A stretch of 64,000 bases of DNA from Membranipora membranacea (taxonomy: Eukaryota > Bryozoa > Gymnolaemata > Cheilostomatida > Membraniporidae). Each line of letters opens with the position of its first letter. Position 1 is the stretch's first letter. A program made the translations under genes and the position numbers. The stretch covers positions 20,892,001 through 20,956,000 of the forward strand of contig OU612073.1 of assembly GCA_914767715.1 (NCBI GenBank). The letters run 5' to 3'. Shown here in pieces: positions 4,401-60,598 of this stretch. Under the pieces are notes generated by a model that saw only the letters and a program-made list of their open reading frames with translations, was not told the DNA's origin and did no database searches.

Positions 4401-7676
<3,276 letters not shown>

Positions 7677-9226: not shown

Positions 9227-12200
9227 TCAGACATGCTCTTCAGCCCCTGCACTACCGTTGGCTATCGTATAGTTATGTGCTCGTGCACCGTGATTGGTCT
9301 TCACTAAGACATCCCGCGATGAAGCAGATCTAGCCGCTGACGACGATTGAGGAGACTTCACATTGTCTGCGTGACCATTTATATCTGGTATAGTGTCTAG
9401 ATATGCCTTTACTTGTGACTGTTTCTGCTGTGCTTGCTTTTTTTCTCGCTCTTTCGCCATTTTTCTATATCGGCAGGTGATGATGATTCCGACTATCAAC
9501 ACTAATAAAGCCACGCCACATAAGGCTATGCCTATAATACCACCAGTACCAAGTTCTTTTGTTGGAGGTAATGTTGTAGAGGTTTTTGAAACACTGTTGT
9601 AAACATTCCGATTACTTCCAGGCTTATTTGGGGATATACTTTCCACGCGCTGATCACATGCATCCACCTTGCTTTTATCTACAAAACAAGATGGGCATCT
9701 AATTTATGATACTGACTACCAACACAGGTGAACACCCTCATGAAAAGATACACAGCTTTTTAATTAAGTTTTAAAATTTGCAGTTTTTCTGAGAATATCC
9801 AACTAATGATAGTCATTTTAAGATTGCAACATCCATGAAAGACGTCTGCCGCACTCAATGACGTGTTTGCCTCCTTAAAATTGTGGGAGTCATCCTCGCA
9901 CTACACATGTTGGTTTGAATAGATAACTGTGCGGAAACTCAATAAAGTGGCTTACAGACAAAAATATTTGGGTTGAGCTATCAAAAATCTTGTTTAAGCT
10001 CCAGGAATCACATCAAGGCCAGAGAAGTACCACTTCAAAACAGTACTAGAATTTGGCAGAAGTGGAACATTACTCACATCCTACTGCAGCGATAGAACTG
10101 TTGAGTACATCTGCGCTGATCACGAGCTGATGGCTGATATACTTGGCAGCAGAAGTCACCCTCAGAAAACAGCGTCTCAAATTAACACAACTCTGTGGCA
10201 CCAACTGATATTGTAAGATGGTCCTGAAAGGTTCAGAATGTAAAGTGTAAACATATAGGAGAAATACTAGGAAACTTAAGCTCATGAAATAACAAAATCA
10301 ACACAAAAAACAGACGATCTCTACTATCATTCAACATTTGCAAACATGAATAGGTGTTTTTAAAATTGGCTCAAGACAGGTATGTTGTTGAATCTAGGCA
10401 CTGGTGTTAAACGACCGTAAAAAATGACAGAATGCTAGCAACTCTGTCATTTTTAATCGCAATAATGCTGGTAGAATCTGTCAACTGGCATTTCCCAGAA
10501 CTCACAGATTGTTTTGAGCTATCTGAAACGCAGCAGGGTTGAGATATGTGACATGAATTTCGTCGTTGTCAGTGGCCGACCATTCGGTAGGCTCTGTATT
10601 GACTTTGACTAGAGTAGATAGGAGTATAGATATCCGTTGAGAAAGTTTAGAGATCTGTGCAGAAGTATAGATTGTGGGGATAACTACTGAAAGTGTCTCT
10701 CTGGTGATTGACTGTGTGGTCTGTAAACAGTCTCCTCCATCGAACCCACACTACAAAACAGCAAAATAGGTGTTCTGTACAGGCAGGGTAATTTACATTG
10801 GTGATCGGTAGGGTAACACTTTGCTTGGGACCAAAGAAAACTAAACAAACGCGGTAACTGTAAATTGCTGAACAGGCTGAACGGGCTGAACAGCTGAATA
10901 GAATTTCTCAGACTAAAATTATTATTTGTAATCTTTTCTCTGGCTGACTATTACTTCTCAAACACATTCCTCCTAACCAAATGATTTGATGAGTCATTAA
11001 GTTCCTGTTGGCACCTAACATAACCAATTTAGGGCAAGCAAATGAAGCAATCAATGTGCCAATTATGACAAAAACTGATGGTGTTCTGGAAATTGGATAC
11101 CAGAAACATTATCCAGCTCAACCTTCCATCTAGCCAGTCTTAACAAGCTTTGTTTATAGGGGGGGGGGGGCTACTTTCCATCCATTCACTAGTCGTGTAA
11201 TGCCGGAAAATTTGCTGTGAATAAAATTGAAAGAAACCAAGGTGAATACTTAAAATAAATAATTTAATGAGAAGAATATAAAGAAATGTCCATGCTTATG
11301 CAAAATTAGCCAATCATGTAAAGAATCAAACAAATAGTAGTCTGAGAAATTCTGTTCAGCTGTTCAGCCTGTTCAGCAATTTACAGTTACCCAAACAAAC
11401 GCACTGAAATGACTCTTATCTAACTCCTAGAGTAACAGAGTAAACGGAGTACTGAGCCTGCGATTGTAACAACGCTTGAAGGTCATGTGACTGAGCATGT
11501 AGCGCAGCATATTTCGGTAGGTATCGGAAGCCTGTTGTAAAAGTTAACAGCGGATTACTAATCAAGGTAACCATGGATTAACAAATATCATGCAACCTAA
11601 AGCTGCAATTATCCCTTGATTGATTGCCCTGTGTCTCCATCAGAAGTGTGCACTACGTGGTCACCAAAGAATGGTTTCAGCTGCTCAACTTAGAAACCAG
11701 AAATACCAATGGACATATCTCAGTAACCCCCTCTCTTTGAATGACTGGTGGGTTGAAAACGGGATTAGCAAATCATATTACTGAATAATGCAGGACAGAT
11801 CGAGACTTACTGAAACATCATACACCATACTGGGTGAAGTTTATACTGAGGAAATGCAGTATTAATACCAACCTGAGGACTAGAACAGTTCCTCTGACAA
11901 ACTCCATCTTGATACAGTGTGTCACAGTGAGGCGTGCCACACTTATCCTCGAGATATGAGTCACAGTCTCCTCCATCGAACAGCTGATCCTCTGAGTCAC
12001 AATGCTCATCACACTGTCCGTTAGCAAAGACATGAGTACAACTATCCTCAGTAGTAGTCTGAGCACATGAGACTGCAAGTAAAAGATTAAATGGATGTCA
12101 GTCACAAGATTCCTGAGAGTTGTTTACATCAGACTTAGTTTGTGATTGCAATCCTCATGTTTTTAGCGCCATTAAAGCATTTGAGATTCAATACTTGGAG

Positions 12201-15200
12201 GGATGAGAGGGTCTCCTTGTAAGCATAGAACAACATGAACATTGGGCTAGGATAAAGGATATTTTTTTAATTTTCTCTTTTTGATAAACTTTTATGCAGT
12301 TTGTATATGGCAACATAGATATAAAATTTCCTTACTGAGGCTGGTGGCGCTGTCTTGAACACACAACTCCATTTTAGTGATCAGCACTGGGTCAGTAGTC
12401 TCACAAGTGAGAGAGCAGGTAAATATTCCTGTGTCTGCATCTTGGTCAATTTTTCGTACCCTCAAAAGGGAGGAAACTTCTCCTGGGGCAGATTCAGTCT
12501 CGTCCCAAATTCCTATGAAAATAAAGAGCATTTCTTTCAAGGAAATGTTTACTCACTCCAAACACGAGCAAATCACAAGGAAAAAACACCAATAACAGCT
12601 ATTAATCAGAAAAATTAGATTAAAATTTGAGAACCTTTGGCGCCTCAACAGGCCATTTTGGGTAATAATGTAATTTAGTGAAGCAAGTGAAAAAAACATA
12701 TAAATAATCCAATACGCAACTCGTGGCATGTAAAGAGTGTCATTCACCTAATTATTATAGGCGGGATATCTAAGACCGCTTGGAAAACTGGTAGGCAACA
12801 TAGGTAAGAGGGAGAAAAGTCTCCTTTAATGGATGCAAAATTTATCATAAAATGTAAATGTGTTTTTTGGTATACATAACAGAAAATATGATCATGGTAT
12901 CAATTGGACTATGCAAGGGTATAGTAGACAATGGGCGGACATTTATGATGAGTAGTCTTCATGCTGGTGAATATAAGAAGTGATGTAGTCATAGCATTCA
13001 GACACAGTGATTCGATATGCCAAGTGATACCAGGGCCTGCCAAATTTTGTAGTGTCAGTATAGGGGCAAAACTATGGGGGCTGGAATGCACTTTTACTGC
13101 CCGTAGTTATGTGCCAACGATCCGCCAACCCTATCATATCCATATCTCTATACCCTTTCAATAGTTATTAACTATACCAAGCGTCTTTTTTTTTAAATAT
13201 AATACTTTGCTAAGGGAACTAAATCCATAATTTCTACTAATATTATAATCAGCGTAGGAAGTAATGGAAGGCTAGCATAAGAATTTATTGAGAATTTTTG
13301 TCAACACATTGATCCTAGATGGGCATAATCATCTGTCATGCAACCTTATATCAGCTTAATTAAATTAGCAATTTTCATGTCATGAAATACTGCAATTTGT
13401 CATCTGAAGAAGCTCTGCCCGATACCCTCAAGACTCAATCTACCTCATATACAGTCCGGACTAATCAATTCTAAACCTACAGCTTTTTAAATCAATAATA
13501 TGGTGTTGAGGAATAAAGACAGAGAGGCGTTGTTTGTCATAGCAGAACACCATCTGGATCTCAAACTATCAACACAAGCCATCTACTAAGAGCATTCATG
13601 ACAGCAACACTCACTCCTGAGATCTCTAGGACCATCTATTAACCTTTTATGCAGTCATGAGGTTGCTAAATAGAAATGCTAACATACTGATAAAAAATCA
13701 CTGCGTTTTATCACTCTTCAGAAGACCAAATAGTTGGAGTCGTAATTTTCACATTGCCATTACTATCATACCTATAAGTATGTTTGTTTAGTATTAGTTG
13801 ACAGATAGATGTTGTGGCATAAAATATCGGCTGAATTTGATACAACAGAAATTTTAATCTCTAGACATGCAATTGTGGCACACTCCCTTTAATTTGCAAT
13901 GTAACAAAATCTGACAAGGGAGACTTATCAAAGGTTCATTCTGTCTACATGCAACAAATATGGGAAAGGGAGTAAATCAAGTAAGGAAAGTATGCGGTAT
14001 GTAGCAGGAACTTCTGAACAGATTTAGGCCCCAACCAAAACTGCAGTGGTTATACTCTGGTGTTGGTAATGTGAAGATTTGGGTTTGATTGCACAGGCAT
14101 TGTGATATCAGTGATGAAATCTCCCTGTAGTGCGGTACCTTATTCAAGAATTTTCCAGATAGAGGAAAACTGTGCTCTAAACTTTTGTTGACTCTTGTAA
14201 AATATACTTATTTACATATCTTTTTGTCTAGTACACACACCTTTGTCTTAGTACTTGAAACTGGGTGGTCCCAGTTAAACCTTTTTACACAAGACAGTAA
14301 AAATAATTATCGGGTGGCCAGAAATTTTTCAATCCACCTCACTGAGCTCTTCAAAGTGAATCTTCATTAACGATGTCACAATCTACATCTAGATCAGCAC
14401 CACCCTCGCTGGGGCCGTTGGGCGAAGGGCAAAAGTCTGGGGGGCTCAGACTAGCACCACCCCTACAGAACTTCTGACAGCTATTCAAATTTCTTTATTA
14501 CATTATCAATCACTTGTCTGCCATGTAAATGGCGTCGTAATGTCAGAATGGTGCTTGCAGTTTTTGAGGCCAGTCACTATGGCAATTTGGTCTTTAGCCA
14601 AATGCAATAGAGATTTGAATTTCAAATTATGCCTTTCATCATTTTGTGTGATCAACTTATATGTTGTGCTTGATTAACAATAGGAAACAAATTTCTGAAT
14701 AAAAACGAAATAGATGATTAACTTTTGGGTATTTGCCATCAAATTGATTGCTTCATTGAAATTTATGCACATTTAAAAAACCAAATGAGGTAAGACCTCC
14801 AAAAAGTAAATACATTGGCTCTTAATGATCTGCAAGTCGTCAAAATAATGTATGATGATATTGATAGTTGAAGTTTTGTTGGCACACAATCTATAAAAGA
14901 ATAGCTGAGAAATTCAAACATGTAACTCTATTACATAATGTCTTCAATGAGAAATGTCTGTGGGCAAACTACTAATGCATTTGTGACAGATTTTGCAGAC
15001 TTAGCAATGCACCGCTAATAAACTAAGCATTGAATGTCATACTTTTACTTGTCTGACACATAGCTAGATGAGAAATCTGAGCCTTCTAACCCAGCCAGTT
15101 TTTATTGACAGCGATATTAGTATTTTTATTGGGATATTAACTGTCCTTCTGATGTTGACTCAGCATTCTATGTCACTGTTCTGTAGCAGGTAGATCTATG

Positions 15201-18200
15201 TTTAGTTTTCTGATTATGGTGTCTAGAAATCTGAATGGATTTGAATACTTTTGATTGGCATGACCACACATATTGCAGATCACTGCACTAATCAGACGAG
15301 GTTAACACCCTGCCAAGAAAGTTCTTGAAGTTTTGTTGGAGTTGTCCTCCCAAAGGTAAAGCGTCGATGAGACGGACCCAGTTTTACAATGTTCATAGTT
15401 TAAGTCTGTGTCATGTGCTCTTTGTAATACAGCAGTTTTGCTTTACAGGTACAATCAAACACAGCAGAATCTCAACCTATGGGTGAGGTGAGATGGATAT
15501 GAGCGAGAGAAATGTAATTATATTTGTATTTTTGTTAGCCTATACGGAATTTTGCGTCATGGTTTTGCTTATTTTCATTTCACCTTGGTAGGTATCTGCC
15601 ATCTGAAGTACATCGAGTTAAATGATCAGGAACAGGAAAGGCAAGACCGGCACTTGAAGATTTTAGTCTTATCATAAATCAAGTGAGCTTTTCCTAGTAA
15701 AAAATGATGGATATCCGATAAGTTATAATCCACCAATCATCCATTTCAACATTACATTGCATAAAGGATCCTCCTAATTATGGTCATGGCTGAAACTGAT
15801 AAATGGGAACCGAAATAACATCCATCATCAATCATCATACAATATTGAAGTTAGTTCATAGTTGGACAGTTTGTGGGGTTTCTAGTCGCCAGCAACATGG
15901 TGAGTCAACCCATAACTGTTGAGGATCGGTAGAAAAAATTTGTTTTTCCTCTTTTTAACTAAAAAGACGCCCACTGCTTACATGACTCATATTTATGAAT
16001 GAAGTCAACATTGCTTGAAAAAACACCAAATTCCAGCGAGTTCCATCCGATAACAGACAAGATTGCTCATCTTGCTGTCCAACGTGACTTAAGGTATCTG
16101 TTGTTGAGTCAGGCACATGACTAGGTAGGGTACATACTTCATGCTATGACTACTGCTTGATCTTACACAAACTCTGATTACAGTAGAAGTGTAAGCGAGG
16201 CAGGATGTAAGTGGTGATGAATGTAATGATAGGTTTATTTTTAGCACAGTTGAGGGAGGAGGAAAGTCCCTCCCTAACTTACGTTTATTTAGAAGAAGGT
16301 ATAGAAATTCACTCTGCAAAATCCCCAACAATATTCGTTAATTCAGAATTATATATAGGATAACAGCAGTATAACACTCACCAAACTTATCTCCATCACT
16401 GATGGGAAATCGTGCTGTCTTTGATGAGAAGAACCAGTGTATTCTAGCAGTGGATGAGTTGTGACATTGTTCTTGTTGTGATATGGCTAAAGAGCAGAGG
16501 ATGTCTACTGTCTGACCTTCAACTCCGACCCCTGAACAACCGCTATCAGTCCGGAGCTCATAGAATGCTAGAAGGGAAGAAAATAAAACAGATTTTCAAT
16601 TTACTGAAGAATAATGAGGAGGAAGGTTCTGCTTAGGTTTAAAGTGTACTATCTATTCAGCGAACCAATTTGGAATCAATCACTTGTGCAATAGTCAAAC
16701 TTGTTTTGCAATTGGGCAAGCAGGAAAAAAAACTATGATAGTATGTATTAATGACCTTCATCATATTTATACATATATTCAGTTTTTTGTAATTAGTTGC
16801 AAAACTAGCGACACTGGCTTAGAACTGGAAGTTGAGCTTTAGGTCAGTTGATATGCATCCCATGTCATGTATTGATAAATATCTAAACTATAGAAACACA
16901 ATATCTGATTTGTTTTTCACGCAACACAAACAGTATTATGTTGTCCATTAATGGCCAGACAAAATCTAGGCAGTACAAGATTAGAATTATATAATGTCTG
17001 GGAACAGTGCCTAAATATGAAATCTAATACAAGACATGGGACGTTTCTATCACAGTTAGAGGGTCCTCACATCTATTGACGCCCCTCTCACCAGTTATGA
17101 AGGGTACTTATAAGCTGTATATTAAATGGGTACTCTTTCAGTACTGGCTCTGCTCTTTGTCCGCGATATGTAGTATCAATATAATACTTGCCAGCTTATT
17201 CAATCCATGAAATAACAGTGTTTTAAAATGATAATGGAGCTTGAATTAATTTAATGTGTTTGTAGACCAAACCAAATATCAACAGATTAGAGCATTAAAA
17301 TAAGTTGATAAATGAACATAATTAGCTTATAATTATAGGATTGAAAGGAATTGCGACTTCTGTTACTTTAAAAGAGACGCAGAGTTGTCGGACTGACCAT
17401 GCAAGTCCATATTCATACCATATGTCGAGGCACTGGCTGAACAAGACCCTGCTCAATTGAAATTTCGGCAATGGCAGCCATGCTAAATGGGATCGGTCTC
17501 TCATTTCCTTTTTCCCAAAACATTTGACTCGCTCCACTTTGTATAAGATGGTATCAGACATCTTGCCGCACTTATCATCCTAACACTCAATGACAATTTA
17601 TTTATCTCATACTCAGTTCCACAACACATAGCATTGTAAACCATCCCATCTCAATGGTTCTCTAATCTTATATTAATCAGCATGGGTCACTGGTTCATAT
17701 CAAACAGCGTGTCCGAAAACGCATTCAAATCTGGACTATTATGTTTCATCATGCAAAGATAATTGAGTATTTTACAAAGTTATCTTCAAATTCCCATGGA
17801 TGATTTCAGGACCCTTCCCTCAATCAAATTAAAAACTTAAAACTGTTGAGAAAATATTTATCAGGTTGAATGCTTGAATAACAATGCCAGCATCATTATC
17901 AGTGCACATATCAAATCTGTGGTACTGTAAAATGTATTTTAACTTTTTTAATCAGTACAATTTCCAATCAAAGCTTTATTTCAAGTGTAGGAAGCATACT
18001 ACGTTCCAGATTCCTTTCCGTATTCTAAATCTTTTCGAAATCGGATATACCATTTTGGGCCTTGATTTATCTTCGCTCCAAGAGGAACCATTTTCAGCAG
18101 GTGTTGCATGTTCTCATGTGATTAAAGTATCGATGGGATGTTTCCTAGCATCCAAATGTTTATCACTGCATAACATAGTCCAAGGCTGTCACTTGGTGGA

Positions 18201-20256
18201 CCTGCAGAAACCTGCAAACCTGTGACCATCTTCGACAGGTGTCGACACAACATGCCTTTATCACCTGATGAGCTCATTGCCTATAACTATGTGGGACTTG
18301 CCTCCAGATATTTCATAATATTTTATACCCCTGATAATTAAGATCACATCAACGGTCTTCATTAAAAACAAAGATTGTTGATGTTCAGTTCATTAACTGT
18401 TTTTCCCATATATTAATTTCCCATGAGGTAAGATTTTGATCACTGGTATAGTAATTTTTTAATCCAAGGGGAGAATATTTCATGAGAATTAATTGTTAGC
18501 TGTGTGAGAATTGTTTTAATTGGTGATGACGCTATCTGGTCTGTTATTTTTTTAACCTGTCCAAGACATAAATCTTCAATCGCTCAATATTGAGCCAGAT
18601 ACCTCGATAGACAGTTCAATGTGACATCCTTTAACCAAAATTCACTTCTGTATTAATTGATCGACATTCTCGCACCTTGATTCCGAGCGAATGACATTTA
18701 ATAACAAACTCAAATTAAAAAAATAATGCTAAGATGGCACAGAGACATCCCTAGGACCTGATGGTAGCCTCACATGTCAAAATAAATATAATATAATATT
18801 CTGGTGAATGGAATGTAAAAGCAGAATGTCGAAATCATAGACTCATATTTCATTTCATTAAAAATTCTACTGGCAGATGGATGGCGATGCTTAACTGCTG
18901 GTAGTGGTAACAGATTTTATTTTTGTCCATTTCCTTCCATTGGTGCATTATCAGATGACCCTATTTACCTCTCATATTCTTGCCTTACAAATCTTATTAT
19001 TGTCCATCCTTCACAGAAGTCTCCATAACAATTTGTCACAAACAGATTTTGAAGAGGCAGATAAAAGGCTTACATGGCGCAGGTAAATCAATTACCTTGA
19101 TATGTGGTGACTTGCACTGCACTGAGGTGGTCCACCCCCAAGACATGACTGCCTTTTGAAACAATAAATTATGGATTAATAAAACAATGGGAGACCAAGT
19201 CAATCTTCCACTACGCTGGTTACTCCATTGATTGTTACATTACCGGATGGCCACCTTGAATCTATTTTTAGCTAAGCTCATGGCAGCCTGTATAAAAATA
19301 ACCACGAAAATGTGGAAAAAAACAACTGGCATTATTTATGTGTTATGACAAGGTTACACATTGGTGATGCCAGACACACCATACCGGATATGGTGAGGTA
19401 TTATTACTGTGCAGCTACTGCAGCTCCGAGTCAGTAAATATCACAACTATCTAACTTACAGATGGCCGCTATCAGCTCACATCTAGTCTTTTATTGCATT
19501 TCCATGCGGTTTACTAAATATTTTCCGGCCAATCTCCTATTTCAAACCATTGCACTCCTATACAGGGGGGGGGGGGGGGGGGAGGATTATTCAATTTCCT
19601 GTTAGAGCTCTAGTGAGGAAGACCACAGTTTGTTTGGTAATGATAGGCTGATCCTTCTAATTACCCAAACATTTACACTCAAATCCATCAAGATCATCAT
19701 GATATTTCTCAGGATTATAGAATTAAAAAAGAGGGTGTATCAGACACGCTGCAGCTTTTTGTCTGCAGTGTGAATGAGCTAATATTGAGGTTTGAGGTAT
19801 AGTAAGGCTTGAACTAAAATCTCAGCAGTCGTCAGTCAGAGAAGCCATGTACCCCTAAGTGTACTGTAAGCATGATATGGCGGTGAACATGAAAAGGTTA
19901 TATCTCCTATCAATGTCTATGTAAAGATAAGGGAATACAGGCGATATGTTGAGTTGGATAGAGCATTTCACTTTTAGGAGTAAATAGAAGGAATGAATAG
20001 ACTGGTGGTAACGAAGGCAACTTTCTCAGAGAATAAAACTCCACGACACATACCTATGCAGTTATCTGTGAGAGAGTTTGCATTGATATTATGGACATAA
20101 AAGTGTGTTTTACCAAATAACCAGATAAACAAACTCACCATCGTTTGAAGCTGCAGCTGTGCATTGTAATGCCGTTTGTAACATTAAGGCAGCGATAGTA
20201 ATCCACATAGTCAGCATCCTCCACCGGCAGCGACAGCATAATGATTGCTGTGTCAT
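9227..20256 (-). CDS. Notch-core-like receptor: signal peptide, Ig domain, two LNRs, NOD/NODP, TM, short tail
   Basis: Exons in coding order: 20256-20139, 16567-16382, 12512-12336, 12072-11873, 10750-10506, 10223-10078, 9678-9227. Phases 1,1,1,0,2,1 agree at every junction and give 507 aa. Residues 1-36 are a signal peptide with hydrophobic core WITIAALML. Residues 40-160 are one Ig-like domain (Cys in DILCSL, Trp in RIHWFF, DTGIFTC). Residues 162-196 are a degenerate LNR (FANGQCDEHC, then FDGGDC) lacking the fifth Cys. Residues 203-235 are a canonical six-Cys LNR (YQDGVCQRNC, then CGFDGGDC). Residues 240-300 match NOD (ETLSVVIPTI) and 310-357 match NODP (paired Cys, CFLRVTSAAKYI). The TM is at 404-426. 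The 81-residue tail is basic then Ser-rich, ends EEHV, and has no RAM or ankyrin region. In Notch, LNR plus NOD/NODP form the mechanosensitive cleavage switch. No EGF repeats or furin site are seen. Introns 1 and 2 (3.6 and 3.9 kb) could hide extra exons. Ligand and signalling mode are unknown. Confidence 0.85.
10853..11392. mobile_element. Inverted-repeat element with 10-bp target duplication (Mutator-like MITE)
   Basis: This 540-bp element lies in intron 4 of the Notch-like gene. The left end begins GGTAACTGTAAATTGCTGAA. The right end read in reverse complement begins GGGTAACTGTAAATTGCTGA. The inverted repeats run for about 50 bp and differ mainly by one extra copy of an internal GGCTGAAC unit on the left. 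The 10-bp repeat AAACAAACGC flanks it at 10843-10852 and 11393-11402. The interior has a poly-G run near 11160 and no coding frame. A 9-10-bp duplication again fits a Mutator-like element, but its terminal sequence is unlike that of the 2.7-kb element. Confidence 0.78.
19565..19582. repeat. Poly-G run (18 G)
   Basis: An uninterrupted run of 18 G lies in intron 1 of the Notch-like gene. Similar runs occur at about 11160, 23787 and 37960. Run lengths may be inexact in any assembly. Confidence 0.8.
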
Positions 20257-29200: not shown

Positions 29201-32200
29201 ACCGACAGCATGATCATTGACTGAGGAAGAATAAATGGAATTAAAATCTATTTTACATAAAGTCTAAAGTCGCGTTTGCTTTACCAGGTAGACAATACGA
29301 ATATGATGACTTGTGATGAACTTTGCCAAAATGTGGGTATATCAAAATGAAAAGTTGTCACAAAAATAACACAAATTTCTATATTTCCAGACCCAACTTC
29401 ACAAGTTGCGGATGCGTCGCTGGATGAGGCTGATGGTGACGTATATAGGGATAATATACATACACTAGTCATGGTAGTCGAGAAATCACTAAGCCTTGTA
29501 AACTTAGTATCTAAGATAGATCAAAGGATTACTAGTCTTACTACTAACGGTAAGTAATATTCCATTCCACACCTGGGTTCTGAACAAACTAGCAACTGTT
29601 GCTGATATTGAAATAGGCATAATAGAGTAATGTAGTTATTGTTGTATATATTATTGTCAGTCTCCAAACACACATATTTTCAGTTAATATGGATATAACT
29701 TCGTAGGGCATCTATCTGAAGAAAAAATGGCTCACCTCAACTGTCAGTGAGGGAAATGATGAAAAACAAGATTTTTTCTAGATAGCCAAAGTCAGCTGTG
29801 AGTTTTATTTTTACAGAGACAGACGGTAAATATTTCCCACGGTTCACGCAGTGTTTAGTACAGTCAGTATCCGGACATCATTACTGGGCAGACGACCCGG
29901 CGTTCTCTCTAGCTAATCATGTACAGATAGAGGAGGAGAAGGTGGTTGATCAGAAGGGACTTCAGGAGCTGCTAAATCGTACAGCCGAGGAAGGTCTGCC
30001 TGTAAACAGACCTCTCTGGCATCTTATACTAGCATCAGGTAAATTTCATGAGCAACGATTTTCATTCTGACTCTGTATGTGAAGCTTTGATAATGTAAGA
30101 AGATTATTAGCGGACATGTCTGCTTATGTTAGCTTAATCTATAATGTTCTTTATTTAACCTGAACTGTTCTGGCTAAGTTTATGAGAGAATAGGATAAAA
30201 ACCAGTGTTTATTTGGAGTTGCTTGCTCATTGACATTAAGGAGACAAATCCTAAATACAGTATAAAACTATCATGATCTTAGTTTTTGTCACTATTGATT
30301 AATTGATAATATTAATGTGATAAACGATTTGTTTTTTTTTGTAGGTTATGGTACATTGAGTGACACAGTGTTGATATGGAGATTCCATGGCACCATGTAT
30401 GATGCTGTGACCATAGCTAAGATTATAGTCTACGCTCTGACAAATCCTAAATTCATCACCTTCAAAGCCTTTAATCAGTATTATCATCATCATAATCATG
30501 TTATCAAGGTAAGGAACTATATGAATGCAGGATATGTATCATCTGTTTCACTGCAGGTGAAAAGAATAATATGACTCGCCATTACTAAGTGGTTCACTCA
30601 TGAAACGTGACAGCCACCTATATCTTATCAGAGCTGCACTTGACATTTTTTGCAGCTCATCATGCTCGATTCTGTCTATGTCTTTACTCATTCAGAATAT
30701 ATTTACTGGTCCAGTGCGATTTCTGTACCTTCTGCTTTCCAAAAAGCGGAGGAGACAAGAACTAGATACTAATACTAACAAAGAGGGAAGCAAACCTCAG
30801 TCACAATCAGGTATGACTGCTTACTGTATGTTCTATTCAAATTTATCATTTTCTAAGGTGTGCACATAACTGTACAAGATGCCATAACTTTTTAACGGTC
30901 TTAGAAGCAGATAGTAAAAATTTGTAATAACAATATGGTATAAGTATGAGATTTTTCAGAGATCCAACCTTTCCTGTTGCATATATGTGTGTTATATTCT
31001 TAGGTTGTAATGTTGTTTGACTTATTGTTATACAGCTCACTACGCATGGACAGAGAGGACACTGAACTTGTCTCAACTACTCAAAAATAAGATGCTTCTT
31101 AGCATGAGCTTCAATGATCTGATATTATCTATATTTACTGGTGCTGCAAGGGGACACGATCCTAATACATCTGAACAGACAGATGATGATCCAAATATAC
31201 TACAAAACAATAACAGGTCTGTATAATGATGTTAGTCAGTGGTGAGGTTAGAGTTTGGCATCATTAGAAACCTCTACCATGTTTTGTTTGAAGCTTTTTC
31301 ATATATCTGGAAAACATTTTGGCATATTTTTAGATTTGACAAGAACTTTGGTAGCCAGAGTCCAATTTTGCCTCATTGCAAAGTTGACGTTAGGTTGAGT
31401 TTAAACGCCATTTGATAAACAAAAATTGAAAGTTTCTCAGTGAAATACACTCATTGCTTATAATTCAGTTCAGTCAGTTCTGCATTGCGGTGCATTGATT
31501 GGTTTCTGTTTTATGTTGCAGTGTGTTGATACCAGTAGACTTATGGACTGGTCTGAAGAATAGGAAGACTTTACCTCAGGGAAATCACATGATATATATG
31601 CCTTGTGCTGTCAGTAAAGTGCCAGGTAAGTATACCTTGTGCTGTCAGTAAAGTACCAGGTAATCCAACTGTCACTCTAATCACAGGCTGAAATGCTGCG
31701 GAATAATTCTGATTGCCTTGAAAGTTTAAGCTTGCGTTCTCTTTGCATGTGCAGTAAAACTGTAATGGACTCTATTGTTGAGTCAAAGTCAAATGGTTGC
31801 AAATCATACCATTTATACAGCACTTTTGAAAACTTGATTGGAGAATCAGTTAAGTGTGTTTTCAAAAACTTTGAGAAAAATAAATTATTGAATTTTCAAT
31901 ATTTTTGGAGAAGCGCATGTCTCACAAGGGATGTAAAAACCATTCCCCTCCGTCACCATTAATCTACTAGGATGATCAGGTCTGTGACATTAGAATTATC
32001 AAAGACTTGGATATCACCTGAGAATACCCACTTACATTCCATATTGTGTTGTTTATGTTGTGTGTTTATATTATAGAGGTGATACCTCGCTTGTGGCGTA
32101 CAGAGCATTTCTTCTCTGAGATGAAACAATCTGGAGATACAAGAACACAACTCTACTCACTTAACTGGCTAGGTTGTCTCCCTTTCTCACAAAATCTGTG

Positions 32201-35200: not shown

Positions 35201-37059
35201 TCCCACTAGCAAAAGGACATCGCCTAAATTAAATAGATCTCGTGAGTAAATAGTGACAATAATCTGTTTTACTGTGACTAGCAGACGGAAAGCTGAATGT
35301 GAGCCTATTCAGCGCTTGAGAATGGAAAAATATATCTTCTAAATATCATGTTACTGTTGGTGATTTGAATATTGAGTCAACAAATGCTTTGTCATACCAG
35401 GGAGTTTGGGACCCATACCCATACCGAGATTTAGGCCGGGAATTTGGAGCTATCTACTCAAGTTGGATGTGAATAGACAACTCCACATTACAACAAACCA
35501 ACATCCATCAGCCAATCAAAACATAGCTAAAACACAAGCTTATTAGTCCACTGGTAAATGAGTAGATAACACCGAAAACATGCAGAACACAGACAGGGTC
35601 CCATCATTGGCCTGAATCCCACGACCAGGTTCACTGAACTGGTATACAATTTGAGTTGCTGGTTTTCAGTTATGTCTTGAATGAGATACAAGCTTTTAGA
35701 ATACATCTGTTATATTGTACTGCTTGAAAGTTGAAGCAATCCTTTGAAATAATAAGCTTACTTTGAATTGTCTCATAACTGTATTTTGGTGTGATTGTGT
35801 ATTTAACAGGAACTCCGTCCCCTCAGATGACAAGGGATAAGTTGACTACATCTCCACAGATTGGAAAAACTAAATCTCTGAGTTTAGCTTCTGCTAAAAC
35901 TGCTAATACAACAGTAGATGACAAGTGAGTATATCAGATACATTCACAAACAGTACTCCCCCTCCCCTAGATAAGAATCACGAGTGATGGAGCCTTCTTC
36001 ATTGTCTACAAATTTGATTCTGATTTCACGATTGAGAGAAGAGATAGTGTTTCTCTTCGTTGTTTTTGTCATCATATTGGATCTGTTGATATTACTGTAT
36101 TCCTTACAGATTGAAGACAAGCGTTTGTAGGAAAGATAGCCCAGTACTATTATCTGATGCTAATCTAGGACTAGGTACCCCTTCTGCGTCGCTGTCCAGT
36201 GAGAACGAGAAAACTAGGTCGCCCACTCTAGACTCTTCTCTCTCTAACCAGTGAGTGTAGTGGTGTACGTAAATCACAACCAATCTGAACATAGATATCT
36301 CATGCAGGGACCGTGTTAGAGGTAAAAACTCTTCGATAACACAGTTACGTACTCCATATTATTCTCTTCATGCCTTCAATTAAATTTTCTCCCTAAATAA
36401 AACATCCAAGCCTACCCAGTCATGACCACTGCTGAATACTGCAATATTTATATTACAGATTCTTAGATGCAGTTGGACCGTCAAAGATAACAGTACCTCA
36501 AACAGCCACTGAAAATAAAACCATTGCCATAACCGTCCCAAACGGTGATTCTACGGGGATGGTGACTCCATCTGGTGGCTGTATAAATTCCCCAGCTACA
36601 TCTGGAGATATAGCGATAAATCATGTGGAGATAAACACTAATGCAGAAGCTGAGCTGGGTTTAGTTACACCATCAGAGAGTTTAGAACTCCAACCAGAGA
36701 TCAACATCAATAACCACTGCAATGAAAAACTATTAAAAGGGAACTCAATGGTGGAAGTTCATAAATCTCATTCTAATCTAGACATTGAACAAACCGGTGC
36801 AGCTTTGCTAAAAGAACAAACGGCTGTTGTGACAAGTTCACCTGTTACAGCAACCAATGGATATTTGAGGCATGACTCTGGATCAGATATTGAACTGTGT
36901 ATTCCCGATGTGGATCACGAAGATAGAATCAGTCAAAAGTCACCAGTAATGATTTTATCAAATGGTGAGGCACAATTAGCTGACTCTGTAGGAAATACAG
37001 AGGAAATCCTGAATGGTATATCTGTAGATATTTGTCAAACTAATGAAGACCCAACATGA
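26299..37059 (+). CDS. WS/DGAT-family O-acyltransferase-like protein (WSD1-like), membrane-anchored
   Basis: Wax ester synthase/diacylglycerol acyltransferases esterify fatty alcohols or diacylglycerol with acyl-CoA. Exons: 26299-26460, 28750-28918, 29391-29549, 29817-30038, 30345-30508, 30696-30810, 31036-31216, 31522-31625, 32077-32251, 33063-33261, 34098-34202, 35019-35241, 35810-35924, 36110-36250, 36459-37059. All phases agree and give 944 aa, about twice the bacterial enzymes. Residues 28-53 are a membrane segment. The N-terminal half carries NRPLWHLILA. The site aligned to HHxxxDG reads HGTMYDA (252-258), so the catalytic second His is Gly. The C-terminal half has a SFPGP block (484-488) at the position of the family's NVPGP motif, and ASPPAHVQYSFS. 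From about residue 590 a Ser/Thr-rich, probably disordered tail runs to the end. Exon 6 uses the acceptor CTCATTCAG to keep frame. A conserved family is clear; whether it is an active enzyme is doubtful. Confidence 0.85.
27285..27313. repeat. 22-bp perfect palindrome flanked by 8-bp direct repeats
   Basis: GAGTTAGAGAG followed by its exact reverse complement occupies 27288-27309. The octamer GTTGCACT stands directly on both sides (27277-27284 and 27314-27321). A palindromic insert between 8-bp repeats resembles a collapsed remnant or excision footprint of a transposon with 8-bp target duplication, such as hAT. It lies in intron 1 of the acyltransferase gene. Confidence 0.65.
27825..27944. mobile_element. 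Perfect 55-bp-arm hairpin with 7-bp direct repeats
   Basis: The arms at 27825-27879 and 27890-27944 are exact reverse complements over 55 bp, beginning CTAGTCTAAGTGCTCAGACT, with a 10-base loop. TACTCTG stands immediately outside both ends (27818-27824 and 27945-27951). The absence of any mismatch between the arms implies a young insertion or active correction. The element is too small to code. It lies in intron 1 of the acyltransferase gene. Confidence 0.85.
33898..33963. repeat. Copies of a CTAGCTAACATTTACTC dispersed motif
   Basis: Two diverged copies of the motif lie in intron 10 of the acyltransferase gene. The second (TAGCTAACATTTACTCCTCT) closely matches the unit at 42938-42963. The same core forms the tandem array at 37588-37689. 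The function is unknown; it may be the conserved part of a larger dispersed repeat. Confidence 0.6.
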
Positions 37060-48776: not shown

Positions 48777-50917
48777 TCATAGATAACCAAGAGATGAACA
48801 TCTCATCTTTTTTTCATTCCATGTTGAAAAACCCACTAACCTCCTTCTCCGTTTTGGTGTTGGGCGCTTTGGTGTTGGGCGTTTTGGGGTTGGACGTTTT
48901 GGTCGTTTCGGTTGTTTAGGCAGTGTAGGAGGTGTAGACGATGGCAGACCTGGTGTAGTTATACACTGTCCCCCTCCACATGTTGATGCAGGACAGCATA
49001 GTCGGAACCTTCCACAGTCGTTATCTGAGAAACACTCTGCTATAACTGAGGTGCGAGCGCATACTTCGGGCAGCGGACTTGCCACTTTTATCGGACAACT
49101 GGTAGTAAATTAAAAAAAGAGAGTGGATAATATAAAAATATTGAACCTACAATCTTCCCGGTTCCCACAATAATTATAACAAAGCTAAAGAGAGCATGAA
49201 ATAAGAAATATAAGCTGGCATTGAGAGAGACATTTATACCATAAGTATCTTTTGTTTTCTATGTTTATGAATGAGTACACTGAGAGTTCTTTCTTACAGA
49301 GGATTCCTAGTAGATAAGTTGATACATTGCCCGGTGTTACATCTGTCTCTTGTTCTACAGCAGGTTTTACCCCCATCGCAATCACTACTGTCACCCTCGG
49401 GATTACATTCAAAGGCTAATCTTACTCTACTGCAGAATTCTGGAAGCGGGAACTGCACAGCTGGACAACTGGTGAAAGAAACAATGGAATGTTGACAGAA
49501 ATAACATGGCAGTGTGAAACTGAATAATTTTGGTTTGCACATACATATGATCCATATCCAACATAAGTTAGGTTGTCATTATGATTACTTTGGTATGCAC
49601 TACACAGCAGGGAGAAGAACTCTCATACAATTCACACAAATAATGGGAGGGCCGATGTGAGAGAGATATAAGTGTACTTGCACTCACTTCCTGTTTTGTC
49701 CTCCATGCAGGTTTGGAGTGGTAGTAGTAAAGAAAGGCTGTGTGGTAGTAGCAGTTGATACCACAGGCTTACAAAACAGTTCTCCGCACGAGTCAGGACA
49801 GCAGCCCAGCCCTGACCCACAGTCACGCTCTCTATTGCACCTAGGTAGGGTGGTGAGTGACTGAGGACATGTGCTGGATGGGGGGACAAGAGGGCAGTCC
49901 AAGTTCAGACAGAGAGTGCCCCCGCACTCTACTGGACAACATGTGCTCCCAAAATCACAGCCTTGGTCTAATCTACATTCAAATGGTGGGAGTCTCAGAC
50001 TGCAGTCCACAGTCTGGTCGACAGCTGGGCAGGTCGCTAGCGTTTGCTGGCAGGTGCTCGGTCTCCCGTAACAAGTAGGGCAGCATGAATAACCATTACT
50101 GCAGTCAAGGCTTGATGAACAGGCAGCGCCGAAATCGTGTGTTGGGTCATTGCATACTCGATCAGCAATTGGTAGGCACACAAATCTGTATGAACGTAAG
50201 ATAACATGGTGGAAAATCACAATCTTGGAATAATCATGATGTCATACTTATCACAAAATTAAGGTTTATTGCATGTAGTAGCGGACACAAGGCCAATAAT
50301 AAAGAACATGCAATTTGCAACATGTTTAAGGAGTTTTAAGGAGTTATGAGCATTGAATAAATACATAAATACATAACCATCTTGAGATATCATACAGAAT
50401 GAGTTAGCTTCAGTGATAAAAGAAATATGAGTACAGAAATTAAAGAGTTTTGATATGTCTATGATGAATATGCTTTGACAATGCTGCCAGGTAGAGTGAT
50501 GGGTGAAATTATGTATGTAGCTTATGAAACGCAAGAGGAAAGTAAAGCAAAAGCAGAGTAATAAACTAGTAGAACTCACATTGGCACGCGGTTAATACCT
50601 GGTGACGACTGGCCATTCGTATATACACCTTCAAGAGAAACAGAGAGATGGAAACTATTTACAGCAAGGTCTAATAGGTGGATAGATAATCAGAAGGCCG
50701 ACATTATTATCAAGCAGGTCTATCATCTAGCAGACATACTACGAATCTGACAGAAGTTGGCAAATCTATCAGGATTCATGAATGAGAAAAAAATTACGTT
50801 CAATTCGAAATTGTTTGGTAATTCCAAGTCTGTCGATTGCTCAGGCTGTTGATCGGTTGATCAGTCAAAGAACTACTTACCTCCGAAGATAAAGCAGATT
50901 ACAATCAGCAGCTTCAT
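48777..50917 (-). CDS. Secreted protein with five WAP (four-disulfide core) domains and a basic PTPKR-repeat tail
   Basis: WAP domains are small disulfide-rich modules found in secreted protease inhibitors and antimicrobial proteins. Exons in coding order: 50917-50881, 50628-50580, 50185-49688, 49468-49298, 49098-48777. Phases 1,2,2,2 agree and give 358 aa. Residues 1-12 are the signal peptide (MKLLIVICFIFG). The long third exon holds three WAP domains, seen from the CC pairs in YSCCPTC, STCCPVECGG and LGCCPDSCGE. Exons 4 and 5 hold one each (KTCCRTRDRC; RLCCPASTCGGGQC). A Thr-rich linker separates domains 3 and 4. After domain 5 comes a Pro/Lys/Arg tail with three PTPKR units. The first domain is irregular. 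The reading frame may stop at 48777 as given or splice at a GTTAGT site after RRRR. The gene is head to head with its paralogue at 53384. Targets are unknown. Confidence 0.86.
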
Positions 50918-56081: not shown

Positions 56082-59000
56082 TTAGTGCCTCGGTATGAAC
56101 TTTATTTTGTATCTCGGCGGTTCCAGCACTATCACAGATTTTGTTACAGTAGTTGGAGTTGTCTCCTGACCGCACACAATCTTATACTTCTGCAGCGTCG
56201 AAACGAGGAAGATGAATATCTCTATTTTGGCTAGCTGCTCACCAGGGCATGCTCTCCTACCTGTTAAATGAATAGAATATAGAATAACAATATTCTAAGA
56301 CCTCAAGGATGCATTCTAGTATCTGAAATAAATTGCAGGCTATGTATGAATAACGAGGGTACCTGGTAAGCCCCAGACTCAGCTATTCTGTTTTCTAATA
56401 AATACCACCATATAATAAATGTAAAAGCGCACTGAATCTGGAATAGTATACATATTTACTTGTATCAGTACAATAGACAATAGTGCAGACATGTTCCGTG
56501 GAAAAAAAATTGATATAATGTAAAATGCTATACACACAGTAGCTCTCAAGTGTGTATGGGATTTACAGTAGCTCTCAACTGTGTATGGGATTTTACATTT
56601 GATTATTAATAATCAATTCTCTTTCCACTCCCTAAGTCGACTTTTGCCTGGAATTAAAGCTCATTACCTGTGCCAAAAGGAGTAAACTCTTTGCCTTCAG
56701 GTTTTTTGAACTTTCCTTCTTCATCGAGGAATCGATTGGCTTTAAAGCTGTACGGGTCCTCATAGAGTGCCTCATTGTGTGATGTACACCACAGATTTCC
56801 AGCCACCACCGTTCCTGTAAGAAGATAGCAGATATGGTATTGATTGCCTACAGTCGCAGGCTGATTGTAAGAATACTTTTTAGAAAGCGATTTTTGGAGC
56901 GACAGTGCGATACAAAAAGCGATCAAAAGATACCATTGGCGTTTATATTTCTAGGTTCTAGTTTTGAAAACCCTCAGTAGGATTGAAACGATTGTATGGT
57001 TGGTTTTCTCAAATCAGATCAGTGGCTGTCCCCTAACTATTGGTATATCAGACTGGTAATGGTTGTAATGTTTTCGGTTTATTTACACTTGGATATGAAT
57101 GTTATCCCTTGCAACTGAGCTTTGTACTCAATGTTGTCTCACTTTTGTTCTATCAAATTTAGCGACCTGTTAGGTAATCATACCTTTGGGTATAGTGTGA
57201 CCACATACAACTGTATCTTCAGTGGTGTAGTGACTCGCTGTCATCATAGCGATATCTGTCCTTAAGATTTCAGTCAGAGCTGACATTGTGCTATGCATCT
57301 CCTGTCTGTCTGAAGCTTGGGGAGTTCTCTCTCCTGTAAAAATTAGACAGGATATCCTGTTAGCAGTCTTGTCATGCTTCGATGAAGTTAAGTTTGACAT
57401 GAGAACTTGAATGGCAATTTTTCGGAGGGCATTGTTCATCAATGTAATCTTGATTAGTAAATTTCCTCAAATTCTGGGAAATGTGACATACTAAATTATG
57501 GATCATACCCTACCTGACAGGCATTAAATAATTGAAACTATAATTTTACCAAGTGCATACATTTCGAGAGAGTTCCAAAAAATTATTGCAACAATACAGT
57601 TTTGCTCTGGAAACTTTCAATTCTAACTGATGACTTCACAATAATGCTCATTATTGCTTCACAGTCTCCATATTTATGGAATAAATTAATTATGGAACTA
57701 AATTAATTTATGGAATAAATTAAATTATTATTTTAGTCTCCATAAAATGTTCTGTCACTGCATGAAAACATTCCTAAAGATGATGTAGAATGACAATAAA
57801 AGTATATATATATATATATTTATACAAAATCCAAATGTGAAATAGAAAGACCCTTAGAAGCTTACCAATCACGTCTTTGATTTCTTGGTATATACCTTCT
57901 TGTACTTCAGGGTGGAGCGTCATGAACAAAAATGCCCAATAAAGTGACATACTGGATGTATCAGTTCCTGCTAGATACATCTGGAGAACTGTTCCTAACA
58001 GGTTGTTTTCTGTTAAATAAAAACATGTATACAAATATTAACTGATATTTTGTCAAGGAATACAACATTATCTGATATGTTATTTTGAGAGCATACTATC
58101 AGGAATGTTGATGATAGACAAAGGGTTGACCCTCCCATATAAAAATGATAAAATATATACATATCATTGAAAGAACTATATTTAAATGGAGGAAGTACTT
58201 GCCTGTGTAGATTTTTGAATTGGGCTCGGCATTCCGCATCTCTATGAGGAAAGAGTCGACGTAATCTCTGGGGTTTTCTGGATCTAAGGTCTTCTTGTGC
58301 TCTTTGATCTGTCCCAGACAGAAGTCCAGGCCAGTCATAGCTTGCTTTTTAGATGCTGCAAAGCCTAAGGGATCTATGGGTAACCACTGTAAAACAAACA
58401 GGAAAGTGATGGTTTAATTCTCTGGTGGAGGACGACTTCTGTATTTGAAGAAAAAAATATGCTGGTTTGCTCATTCTCAGGCATAATGTGATGGTCGACC
58501 CCACTATTCATTTGCATTCTGGAATTTAAGAAAATAACTTTTTCCACTCACACATCTTGCATTCCTTTGTCAAAAAGGCCAACAAATCCTCCTTGGTGAG
58601 TATTCTGATTTCTTACTCAAATCTCAAAATAACAATAATAGCGATTCATGAGGCTTACACACCTTGAGGAAAGGCGCCAACTCCATCATAAAGTACTTTC
58701 CAAAGAATTCACCAAACTTCAGGTTCTTAGCCTGATCCCTGTTGTATTCAAATCGTTTTCCGAATATGATATGAGTGGCTACATTAGATACTGACTGCTG
58801 TAGCTGCTCGTGTAGATCTATTGGTTGCTGGTTTGTTTTTTCGAGCACTTCTAAGAAATATCTCACTTCCTCGTGTATGACCTCTTCCATACCCTGGCGT
58901 CCTGTTGGGAAGAAACAGTCAATGATTGAAAATTACTTTATGGAATTTGGTATCTATTAATTATTAAGTTCCATTCGAAGATTGCAACTGATTAATGGTG

Positions 59001-60598
59001 GGCAGATAGTTTGTTTCATGTATATCCTTTTGAAACTTGAAGTTGTCCAATTACACTGAACGAGAGCATAACTACCACTCACATGCTTTGCTTCTATTGG
59101 GTCTCACCAATCAAAAAGTGAAGGTTACATTTTGCCGCTATGGTAATAGCATGCCTTGTTCAAAATGTGTCGGAAAATTGGACCCAACACTAGAAATGTC
59201 TTGAGTACAAGACACGCCTTCTGGCTGTTTTTAAATGTGTCTGGAGGTAAACCATGGGTGTAGCCAGGCGAGTAGACCGTGTATTATATAAGTGACATCA
59301 CGTAGCGGACTGTGTAAAGTTATTTGACCTGAGTGAACTAGCTAAGGCAAGAATAAGTAAACAACACACACATCTTGATTGTAAGATCATACAGCGCCTG
59401 TTACTAGATAAACACTGTCATCCATATAACTCACCTACACCTCTCTCCCTGAACACACTCAGCATGTGACGTCTTAATGGCTGCCAGACACCATCTGCGC
59501 TGTCGATCATACCAAGAGCTGAATATATCATAAGCTGATGTTAGTAAAAGACTATATGTAAATAGTGATTGGAAATGAATGATAGGCATAAGGCAATGCT
59601 GTCTGAATATGACAGTTGAAAGCCCCATTTGAATACAGTTTTGAACTTGGTTGATAACCTCTCAATTATTATTTTTAACTTTTGACACATATCAGAAGCT
59701 GAATGGTGAACAGTGGGTATTATTCAAGGAATAGATTTTCTGCACTAATTCTGTTGCCTCCGATCGTCTTTTGCAATGAGAGTAGATTGACAAAATAAAT
59801 TTCTTTATACATTTTCGTTAAAAAGTCAGAGTCCCCGATTTTGGAAATGAATGATGTGTAATGCCCTATTGAAATCATCGTTTATTACCGATAGGAGACG
59901 GTGTAGTTGTGTCTATACAGAATGAGACTGTTATATTTACCATCAGGGTAGCCCAGAACTGCCAAAGGAGTCCTCTCTAGCGTCTGTGGAGGACGCATAC
60001 TAAGAGTATTAGCATTCTTTATAAAAGCTTCGTGTAAGGCTTTAGGAGAATTGAGGATCACTGTTGGATTTTGTGGCCATCTTACTGTGAACACCTCTCC
60101 AAAGTTTTCTGTAAACACATGGAAGAGATTTGTATTTTTAAACCTAAATGCTTGCTTCAGTCGTGTGTGATGGTTGATAGTGGTAGCCAGTTTACAGTCT
60201 AAGACTTTACAAACATCACTTATTTGAGGTGTCTACTAATTGCTATTTTCTGAACGAATTTCTCCATTCTTCTACAATGAACCGTCATGCAGCGATATCC
60301 TCACATAATTGCAACCTGCACATGCTGCAGCAAAAATATATAAACATCTTAAATATTGAACCAATCGATGAAAAAATCCAGCTTATGTCTCACCGTAAAG
60401 GTATTGTCCAAGGTTGTCGAAGTGAAATATAAGTTGATGAGAATTCCCGATCAGAGGTAGAGGCATAGGACCAGGGGGATATCGGTGTCTGTTCCATACT
60501 GGCCAGTAGTGTAGGAGGAAAAACACTGTCCCTGTGCCGACTAACACCGAGGTGGGCAGAGATGTTACATATTCTATCGCCGAACTGAGATTGTCCAT
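56082..60598 (-). CDS. Microsomal cytochrome P450, CYP2-like
   Basis: This is a haem-thiolate monooxygenase anchored in the ER, oxidising small lipophilic substrates with electrons from P450 reductase. Exons in coding order: 60598-60394, 60108-59941, 59518-59435, 58901-58663, 58386-58203, 58009-57866, 57333-57184, 56814-56668, 56260-56082. The phases agree throughout, giving 499 aa, the normal length. There is an N-terminal membrane helix (about 16-40), then the Pro-rich hinge RYPPGPMPLPLIGNSHQ. The C-helix has WQPLR (136-140), the I-helix AGTDTS (307-312) and the K-helix ExxR at E363-R366. The haem loop FGTGRRACPG spans exons 8 and 9 with Cys445 as the iron ligand. The nine-exon structure with mostly phase-1 borders resembles CYP2 genes. 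Intron 5 has a GC donor (G|GCAAGT), required by the frame. An upstream in-frame ATG at 60625 would add nine residues. Substrate unknown. Confidence 0.93.

Follow-up and report, generated by a model that had tools for sequence, protein, structure and literature searches.

The window analyzed here, a 64,000-nucleotide stretch of contig OU612073.1 (GC 37%) from the bryozoan Membranipora membranacea, carries on its minus strand (20256..9227) a seven-exon gene for a membrane protein that combines a single immunoglobulin (Ig) domain with Lin-12/Notch repeats (LNRs). All introns are GT-AG, and the exons join in a single frame into 507 residues plus a stop codon, as a preliminary description of the DNA had stated, with junctions at 20139/16567, 16382/12512, and 12336/12072 and three more. 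A stop lies in frame upstream of the first ATG, and the signal segment could start at M1, M14, or M17. The protein comprises, in order, a signal peptide; one Ig domain; a degenerate LNR (LNR-a) and a canonical one (LNR-b); a region resembling the NOD and NODP halves of the Notch heterodimerization domain (HD); a stalk; one transmembrane helix (TM); and an 81-residue tail. The preliminary description had likewise listed a signal peptide, one Ig domain, two such LNRs, one TM, and a tail of this length; hydropathy (mean >1.2 over 19 residues) confirms the membrane-related parts, with just one signal-peptide-like stretch and one TM both in this protein and in the orthologue described below.

Orthologue and extracellular modules

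A search for orthologues, proposed in the preliminary description, found one of equal layout in the cheilostome bryozoan Watersipora subatra: a predicted protein of 487 residues (47% identity over 91% of the query, E=4.3e-129) with the database name 'neurogenic locus notch homolog protein 1-like'. It was the sole relative at E<=0.001 in a set of 5.8 billion proteins, in which the 7991 candidates with most words in common were scored, at 0.55-1.75 times the query length, a range that excludes full-length Notches and longer relatives. Its residues 138-345, used as a query, matched only the protein itself (571 candidates). The other match of the profile search, P0002 (E=2.2e-3), was dropped as a many-LNR protein on a 1.4-kb metagenome contig, with the rest of the layout missing.

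The orthologue follows the same order, with a signal peptide, one Ig domain, two LNRs, an HD-like region, a stalk, a TM, and a tail, and the alignment of the two bryozoan proteins spans the Ig domain through the tail. The cysteines between the signal peptide and the TM are all common to both (20/20), as are four N-glycosylation sequons of the ectodomain. Since the W. subatra protein has an equal layout, the seven-exon chain is no artefact of the preliminary description, whose assignment of the Ig and LNR exons to one gene is borne out by a predicted protein that joins the Ig domain and the LNR/HD part. Over aligned residues, identity amounts to 50/117 (43%) in the Ig domain, 23/35 (66%) in LNR-a, 19/31 (61%) in LNR-b, 70/122 (57%) in the HD, 17/43 (40%) in the stalk, 12/21 in the TM, and 27/77 (35%) in the tail, which is the least conserved part (81 residues in M. 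membranacea and 84 in W. subatra).

Table 1. Exons and mapped elements of the gene (positions within the window)
Feature	Positions	Strand	Content
Exon 1	20139..20256	minus	Start and signal-peptide-like segment, ~residues 1-40; GT donor
Exon 2	16382..16567	minus	Ig domain, first half; introns phase 1-1; C64 and W84 kept in W. subatra
Exon 3	12336..12512	minus	Ig domain, second half, with DxGxFxC; introns phase 1-1; 48% identity to W. subatra (fragment row)
Exon 4	11873..12072	minus	LNR-a (without C5) and most of LNR-b; holds C163; 58% identity to W. subatra (fragment row)
Exon 5	10506..10750	minus	End of LNR-b and NOD-like HD half; 56% identity to W. subatra (fragment row)
Exon 6	10078..10223	minus	NODP-like HD half, Cys pair C321/C327; 67% identity to W. 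subatra (fragment row)
NSSIAAVG	10079..10102	minus	Putative S2-like site if the shared Cys pair anchors the alignment; conserved N-glycosylation sequon
Exon 7	9227..9678	minus	Stalk, transmembrane helix, 81-residue tail, and stop
C365 codon	9656..9658	minus	Conserved stalk cysteine lacking an obvious partner
Transmembrane helix	9473..9535	minus	Residues 406-426

Assignment of the Ig domain follows from its superfamily hallmark, C64...W84...DxGx[FY]xC134, of which the core Cys pair, the Trp, and the terminal motif are all present in both proteins. The introns on either side of the Ig exons and between them are all phase 1, a pattern that usually marks a shuffled cassette. Pfam detects the two LNR stretches in the M. 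membranacea protein with E=5.2e-15. LNR-b has the canonical spacing (4-8-3-4-6), and LNR-a retains C1 (spacing 8), C2, C3, C4, and C6, with a Gln at C5 in both species. Of the profiles that the preliminary description had proposed to search, LNR was thus matched, Ig stayed below the Pfam cut-off (I-set, E=4.2e-4, for a W. subatra fragment; V-set, E=0.068, for an M. membranacea fragment), and NOD and NODP went unmatched.

Among solved structures, the best matches are the regulatory regions of Notch1-3, with whole-sequence E values of 2.1e-12 for the M. membranacea protein and 4.3e-15 for both proteins together. The top-scoring stretch of the two-protein search, which has an E value of 1.4e-10 by itself, places profile positions 169-278, which hold LNR-a, LNR-b, and the start of the HD, on Notch LNR-B, LNR-C, and NOD. 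An hhalign comparison of the two-protein profile with Notch1 (probability 96.4, E=1e-9) covers residues 126-276 and thus reaches no further than the first part of the HD; the residues that it matches ahead of the LNRs are probably spurious.

The region between the LNRs and the stalk

The region that follows the LNRs is likely a divergent Notch HD (SEA-like), as judged by profile comparisons. A profile built from the HDs of human Notch1-3 was compared with the bryozoan HDs, with 5000 shuffles, and with the 222 window open reading frames (ORFs) of at least 60 residues. The W. subatra HD obtained a score reached by 3/5000 shuffles and by 0/222 ORFs, and in both bryozoan HDs the two matched stretches are collinear, the first on NOD and the second on NODP, the NODP stretches scoring 6.1 and 1.6 bits. 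Judging by the match coordinates, the bryozoan NOD-NODP loop lacks ∼17 residues relative to that of the Notch profile. In the reverse direction, the scores of a bryozoan profile against Notch1, Notch2, and Notch3 were reached by 336, 104, and 11 of 5000 shuffles, respectively.

When the LNRs were kept and the HD was shuffled 400 times, the full score was reached by 7, 14, and 14 shuffles for Notch1-3, by 10 for the M. membranacea protein, and by 110 for the W. subatra protein; the best-domain score was reached by 0, 9, 82, 4, and 277 shuffles, in the same order. These results are mixed, mostly in the expected direction. Single-pair comparisons with Notch1, Notch2, and Notch3 (2000 shuffles) gave fractions at or above the real score of 0.52, 0.33, and 0.022 (M. 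membranacea) and 0.0065, 0.37, and 0.21 (W. subatra) for NOD, and of 0.094, 0.41, and 0.045 (M. membranacea) and 0.23, 0.0105, and 0.015 (W. subatra) for NODP. Local alignment of two profiles gave scores reached by 27/300 shuffles for NOD and 1/300 for NODP, and the wrong-half controls gave 8/300, which is nearly as good, and 272/300. With the position between the LNRs and the TM also weighed, we consider homology to the Notch HD highly probable.

If C321/C327 corresponds to the Notch NODP pair, NSSIAAVG (NSSIASVG in W. subatra) would sit at the position of the Notch1 S2 site, which we take to be IEA/VQ. The sequon N350-S-S begins five residues ahead of A355 in the proposed S2-like A/V bond, and likewise in W. 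subatra; a glycan at N350 might alter protease access. The distance from the S2-like site to the TM is 51 residues in the M. membranacea protein and 50 in the orthologue, compared with about a dozen in Notch1. Two cysteines, C163 at the start of LNR-a and C365 in the stalk, are invariant in both proteins and have no obvious partner, C163 being without its usual LNR partner because C5 is missing from LNR-a. Counting along the chain suggests that a C163-C365 bond, if formed, would join the beginning of LNR-a to the chain beyond the S2-like site.

Relation to Notch and possible modes of action

By family membership the protein is not a Notch receptor. It has two LNRs where Notch receptors have three. 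Pfam finds no EGF repeat in either bryozoan protein, no ankyrin repeat in the 81-residue tail or in the 84-residue tail of the orthologue, and no other domain above cut-off in either tail. The furin motif R-X-K/R-R is absent from both ectodomains, looser furin motifs lying outside this search. A crude pattern scan of the window revealed neither a further LNR exon nor any EGF or ankyrin motif, although it also missed the intron-split LNR-b. Of the 153 window ORFs of at least 68 residues, 125 were scanned with Pfam (the 28 excluded being those of the gene itself and a number of short ORFs, most of them overlapping, that were picked without a system); at E<=0.01 they yielded P450, WAP, and WS_DGAT only, and no EGF repeat. 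These results support the absence of EGF repeats, an R-X-K/R-R furin motif, and ankyrin repeats, as claimed in the preliminary description. Its statement that 'exactly this core' operates in Notch proved too strong, given the two LNRs, the weakly recognizable HD, the ∼50 residues that separate the TM from the S2-like site, and the two conserved cysteines that lack an obvious partner. The likeness to the Notch negative regulatory region (NRR) lies in the succession of LNRs, an HD-like region that contains a Cys pair, and one TM; the protein differs from Notch in its two rather than three LNRs, its longer stalk, its 81-residue tail, and its lack of EGF repeats, an R-X-K/R-R site, and ankyrin repeats.

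For the protein as a whole, we lean towards a type I bryozoan membrane receptor in which the Ig domain occupies the place that EGF repeats and the first LNR have in a Notch-type NRR and in which the LNR/HD unit gates shedding. The Ig domain would bind a partner; the LNR/HD unit would hold a membrane-near metalloprotease site closed; opening of this unit would lead to shedding of the ectodomain; and the remaining stub might then be cut within the membrane or degraded. Because the tail shows the lowest conservation and no recognized signaling domain, the protein may act mainly through shedding itself, which would end adhesion and release an Ig fragment, rather than through a nuclear signal. A nuclear output like that of the Notch intracellular domain is unsupported, because the tail has no Pfam domain above cut-off. 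Regulated shedding is plausible by analogy with receptors that have SEA-like proteolytic switches, and it is our leading reading because the two LNRs give the HD-like region a folded neighbour. In a reporter assay described in the available part of PMC6586460, (i) dystroglycan, protocadherin-15, and CDHR2 (strongly) substituted for the Notch switch with a contact-only signal that was blocked by BB-94 and by a gamma-secretase inhibitor; (ii) Trop2 and cadherin-23 showed moderate switch activity; and (iii) MUC1 and IA-2, which are without a structured neighbour, were cleaved in the absence of ligand. The bryozoan proteins would resemble these receptors in having a putative membrane-near SEA-like domain adjoining another folded domain. 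They differ in that the neighbours described there are cadherin-like or thyroglobulin domains, not LNRs (for protocadherin-15, one legend gives an Ig-like neighbour), and no combination of Ig and LNR is described in that part of the paper.

Several results weigh against the reading of an LNR/HD-gated receptor. Pfam NOD and NODP are absent from the E<=10 listings of both proteins, HMMER filters dropping most matches above ∼0.1, so the NOD/NODP-like region of the preliminary description, which had itself named the lack of such a match as a refutation, stands by the weak collinear matches to the Notch-only HD profile and not by Pfam. This silence is weak evidence against an HD, because some bilaterian Notches are also reported, in the available part of PMC2770060, to be without NOD and NODP. 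Moreover, hhalign with the HD alone gave no match; the score of the M. membranacea HD against the Notch HD profile was reached by 127/5000 shuffles and by 3/222 ORFs, the gene's own exons included; the NOD stretch has negative bit scores in both proteins (-1.8 and -2.3) and thus carries no weight alone; and the LNR match extended into the HD fails to beat shuffled HDs in some pairs. AlphaFold, run on the orthologue from five shallow alignment rows with a few residues misplaced at two row starts, returned a mean predicted local distance difference test score (pLDDT) of 37.6 and a predicted template modeling score of 0.23, with the TM helix as the one confident part (blocks of pLDDT 82-95); four other alignments, in which short exon rows were misplaced, were left out of folding. 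In addition, the long stalk offers unmasked cut sites, so cleavage could take place without HD opening, and a longer stub would be a poorer gamma-secretase substrate, because affinity drops as the ectodomain lengthens (Bolduc 2016, as cited in the available part of PMC7248309). Finally, the S2-like site may be bridged by C163 and C365, or these cysteines may transmit load around the HD. The long stalk and the C163/C365 pair, both conserved departures from Notch, argue that the protein may not operate exactly as Notch does.

A rather doubtful alternative is an Ig-type adhesion or decoy protein, with the LNR/HD unit serving as a calcium-stabilized spacer and with neither a regulated cut nor an intracellular signal. 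The poorly conserved tail with its lack of Pfam domains above cut-off and the HD that is weak by sequence are compatible with such a protein, and a SEA domain need not be cut, since a MUC13 chimera reached the surface without proteolysis in the assay cited above (PMC6586460, available part). However, the LNRs (66% and 61% identity) and the HD (57%) are the best conserved parts of the ectodomain and exceed the Ig domain (43%), which suggests that the core rather than the head is the constrained device.

In a disulfide-stapled variant, which we regard as improbable, a C163-C365 bond would let load bypass the HD, and cleavage at the S2-like position would release the ectodomain only after reduction, so that gating would depend on redox state or on stalk cleavage instead of force acting on the HD. 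Both cysteines are invariant, the number of cysteines between the signal peptide and the TM is even (20) in both proteins, and in Notch structures the stretch just ahead of LNR-B overlies the S2 strand. C163 or C365 could, however, pair instead with an Ig cysteine or intermolecularly, and the proposal draws on two sequences. A truncated genuine Notch gene or a gene-model artefact with missed EGF and ankyrin exons is very improbable in spite of the Notch-like name of the orthologue, as the orthologue itself, the pattern scan, and the Pfam scan of 125 ORFs all disfavour it and both proteins have a start, a stop, a signal-peptide-like stretch, and a short tail.

To our knowledge, the force-gated switch of Notch is confined in nature to Notch-type proteins with EGF and ankyrin repeats. 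We found no description of a native receptor joining Ig, LNR, and HD in the open-access literature, in agreement with the preliminary description, which knew of no native receptor of this layout. A Monosiga 'Notch-like' gene (one EGF repeat, two LNRs, a TM, and three ankyrin repeats; available part of PMC2770060) shares with the LNR/HD-gated receptor favoured here a signal peptide, two LNRs, one TM, and a reduced Notch-type layout, but carries EGF and ankyrin repeats, and an Ig domain goes unmentioned in that part of its description. Engineered synNotch receptors (mentioned in the available part of PMC6586460) likewise combine a Notch core with a binding head of foreign origin and with another tail; the bryozoan protein differs in being the product of a natural gene, in its diverged core, and in a tail that is not a known transcription factor. 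It is tentatively conceivable, though doubtful, that the protein is a natural synNotch counterpart, with a Notch-derived mechanosensitive switch under an Ig head and over a new tail, and possibly with a C163-C365 staple in place of the LNR plug and a trigger of force plus redox. If so, a native core under another head and over another tail would mean that evolution, like engineers, has handled the switch as a module that can be moved between proteins, and a natural core that has diverged in this way, with two LNRs, other cysteines, and no furin site, would reveal which features the gate needs.

Other features of the window

The window gave no Rfam match at gathering scores, and a long plus-strand ORF at 36436-37056 has no Pfam match at E<=0.1. 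On the minus strand at 56657-60232, four exon-like ORFs match P450 in order (profile positions 22-72, 108-198, 308-361, and 358-407) and probably form a CYP gene; in all, 6/125 of the ORFs scanned match P450. WAP matches occur in 5/125, among them a cysteine-rich minus-strand ORF at 49687-50241 with two WAP four-disulfide-core stretches (E=3.4e-4), which may belong to a longer WAP protein. A plus-strand ORF at 29786-30067 weakly matches, below the cut-off, the catalytic domain of wax ester synthase/DGAT (E=4.5e-4), and a CTTA tandem array of 41 copies with 98% matches occupies 6237-6400.

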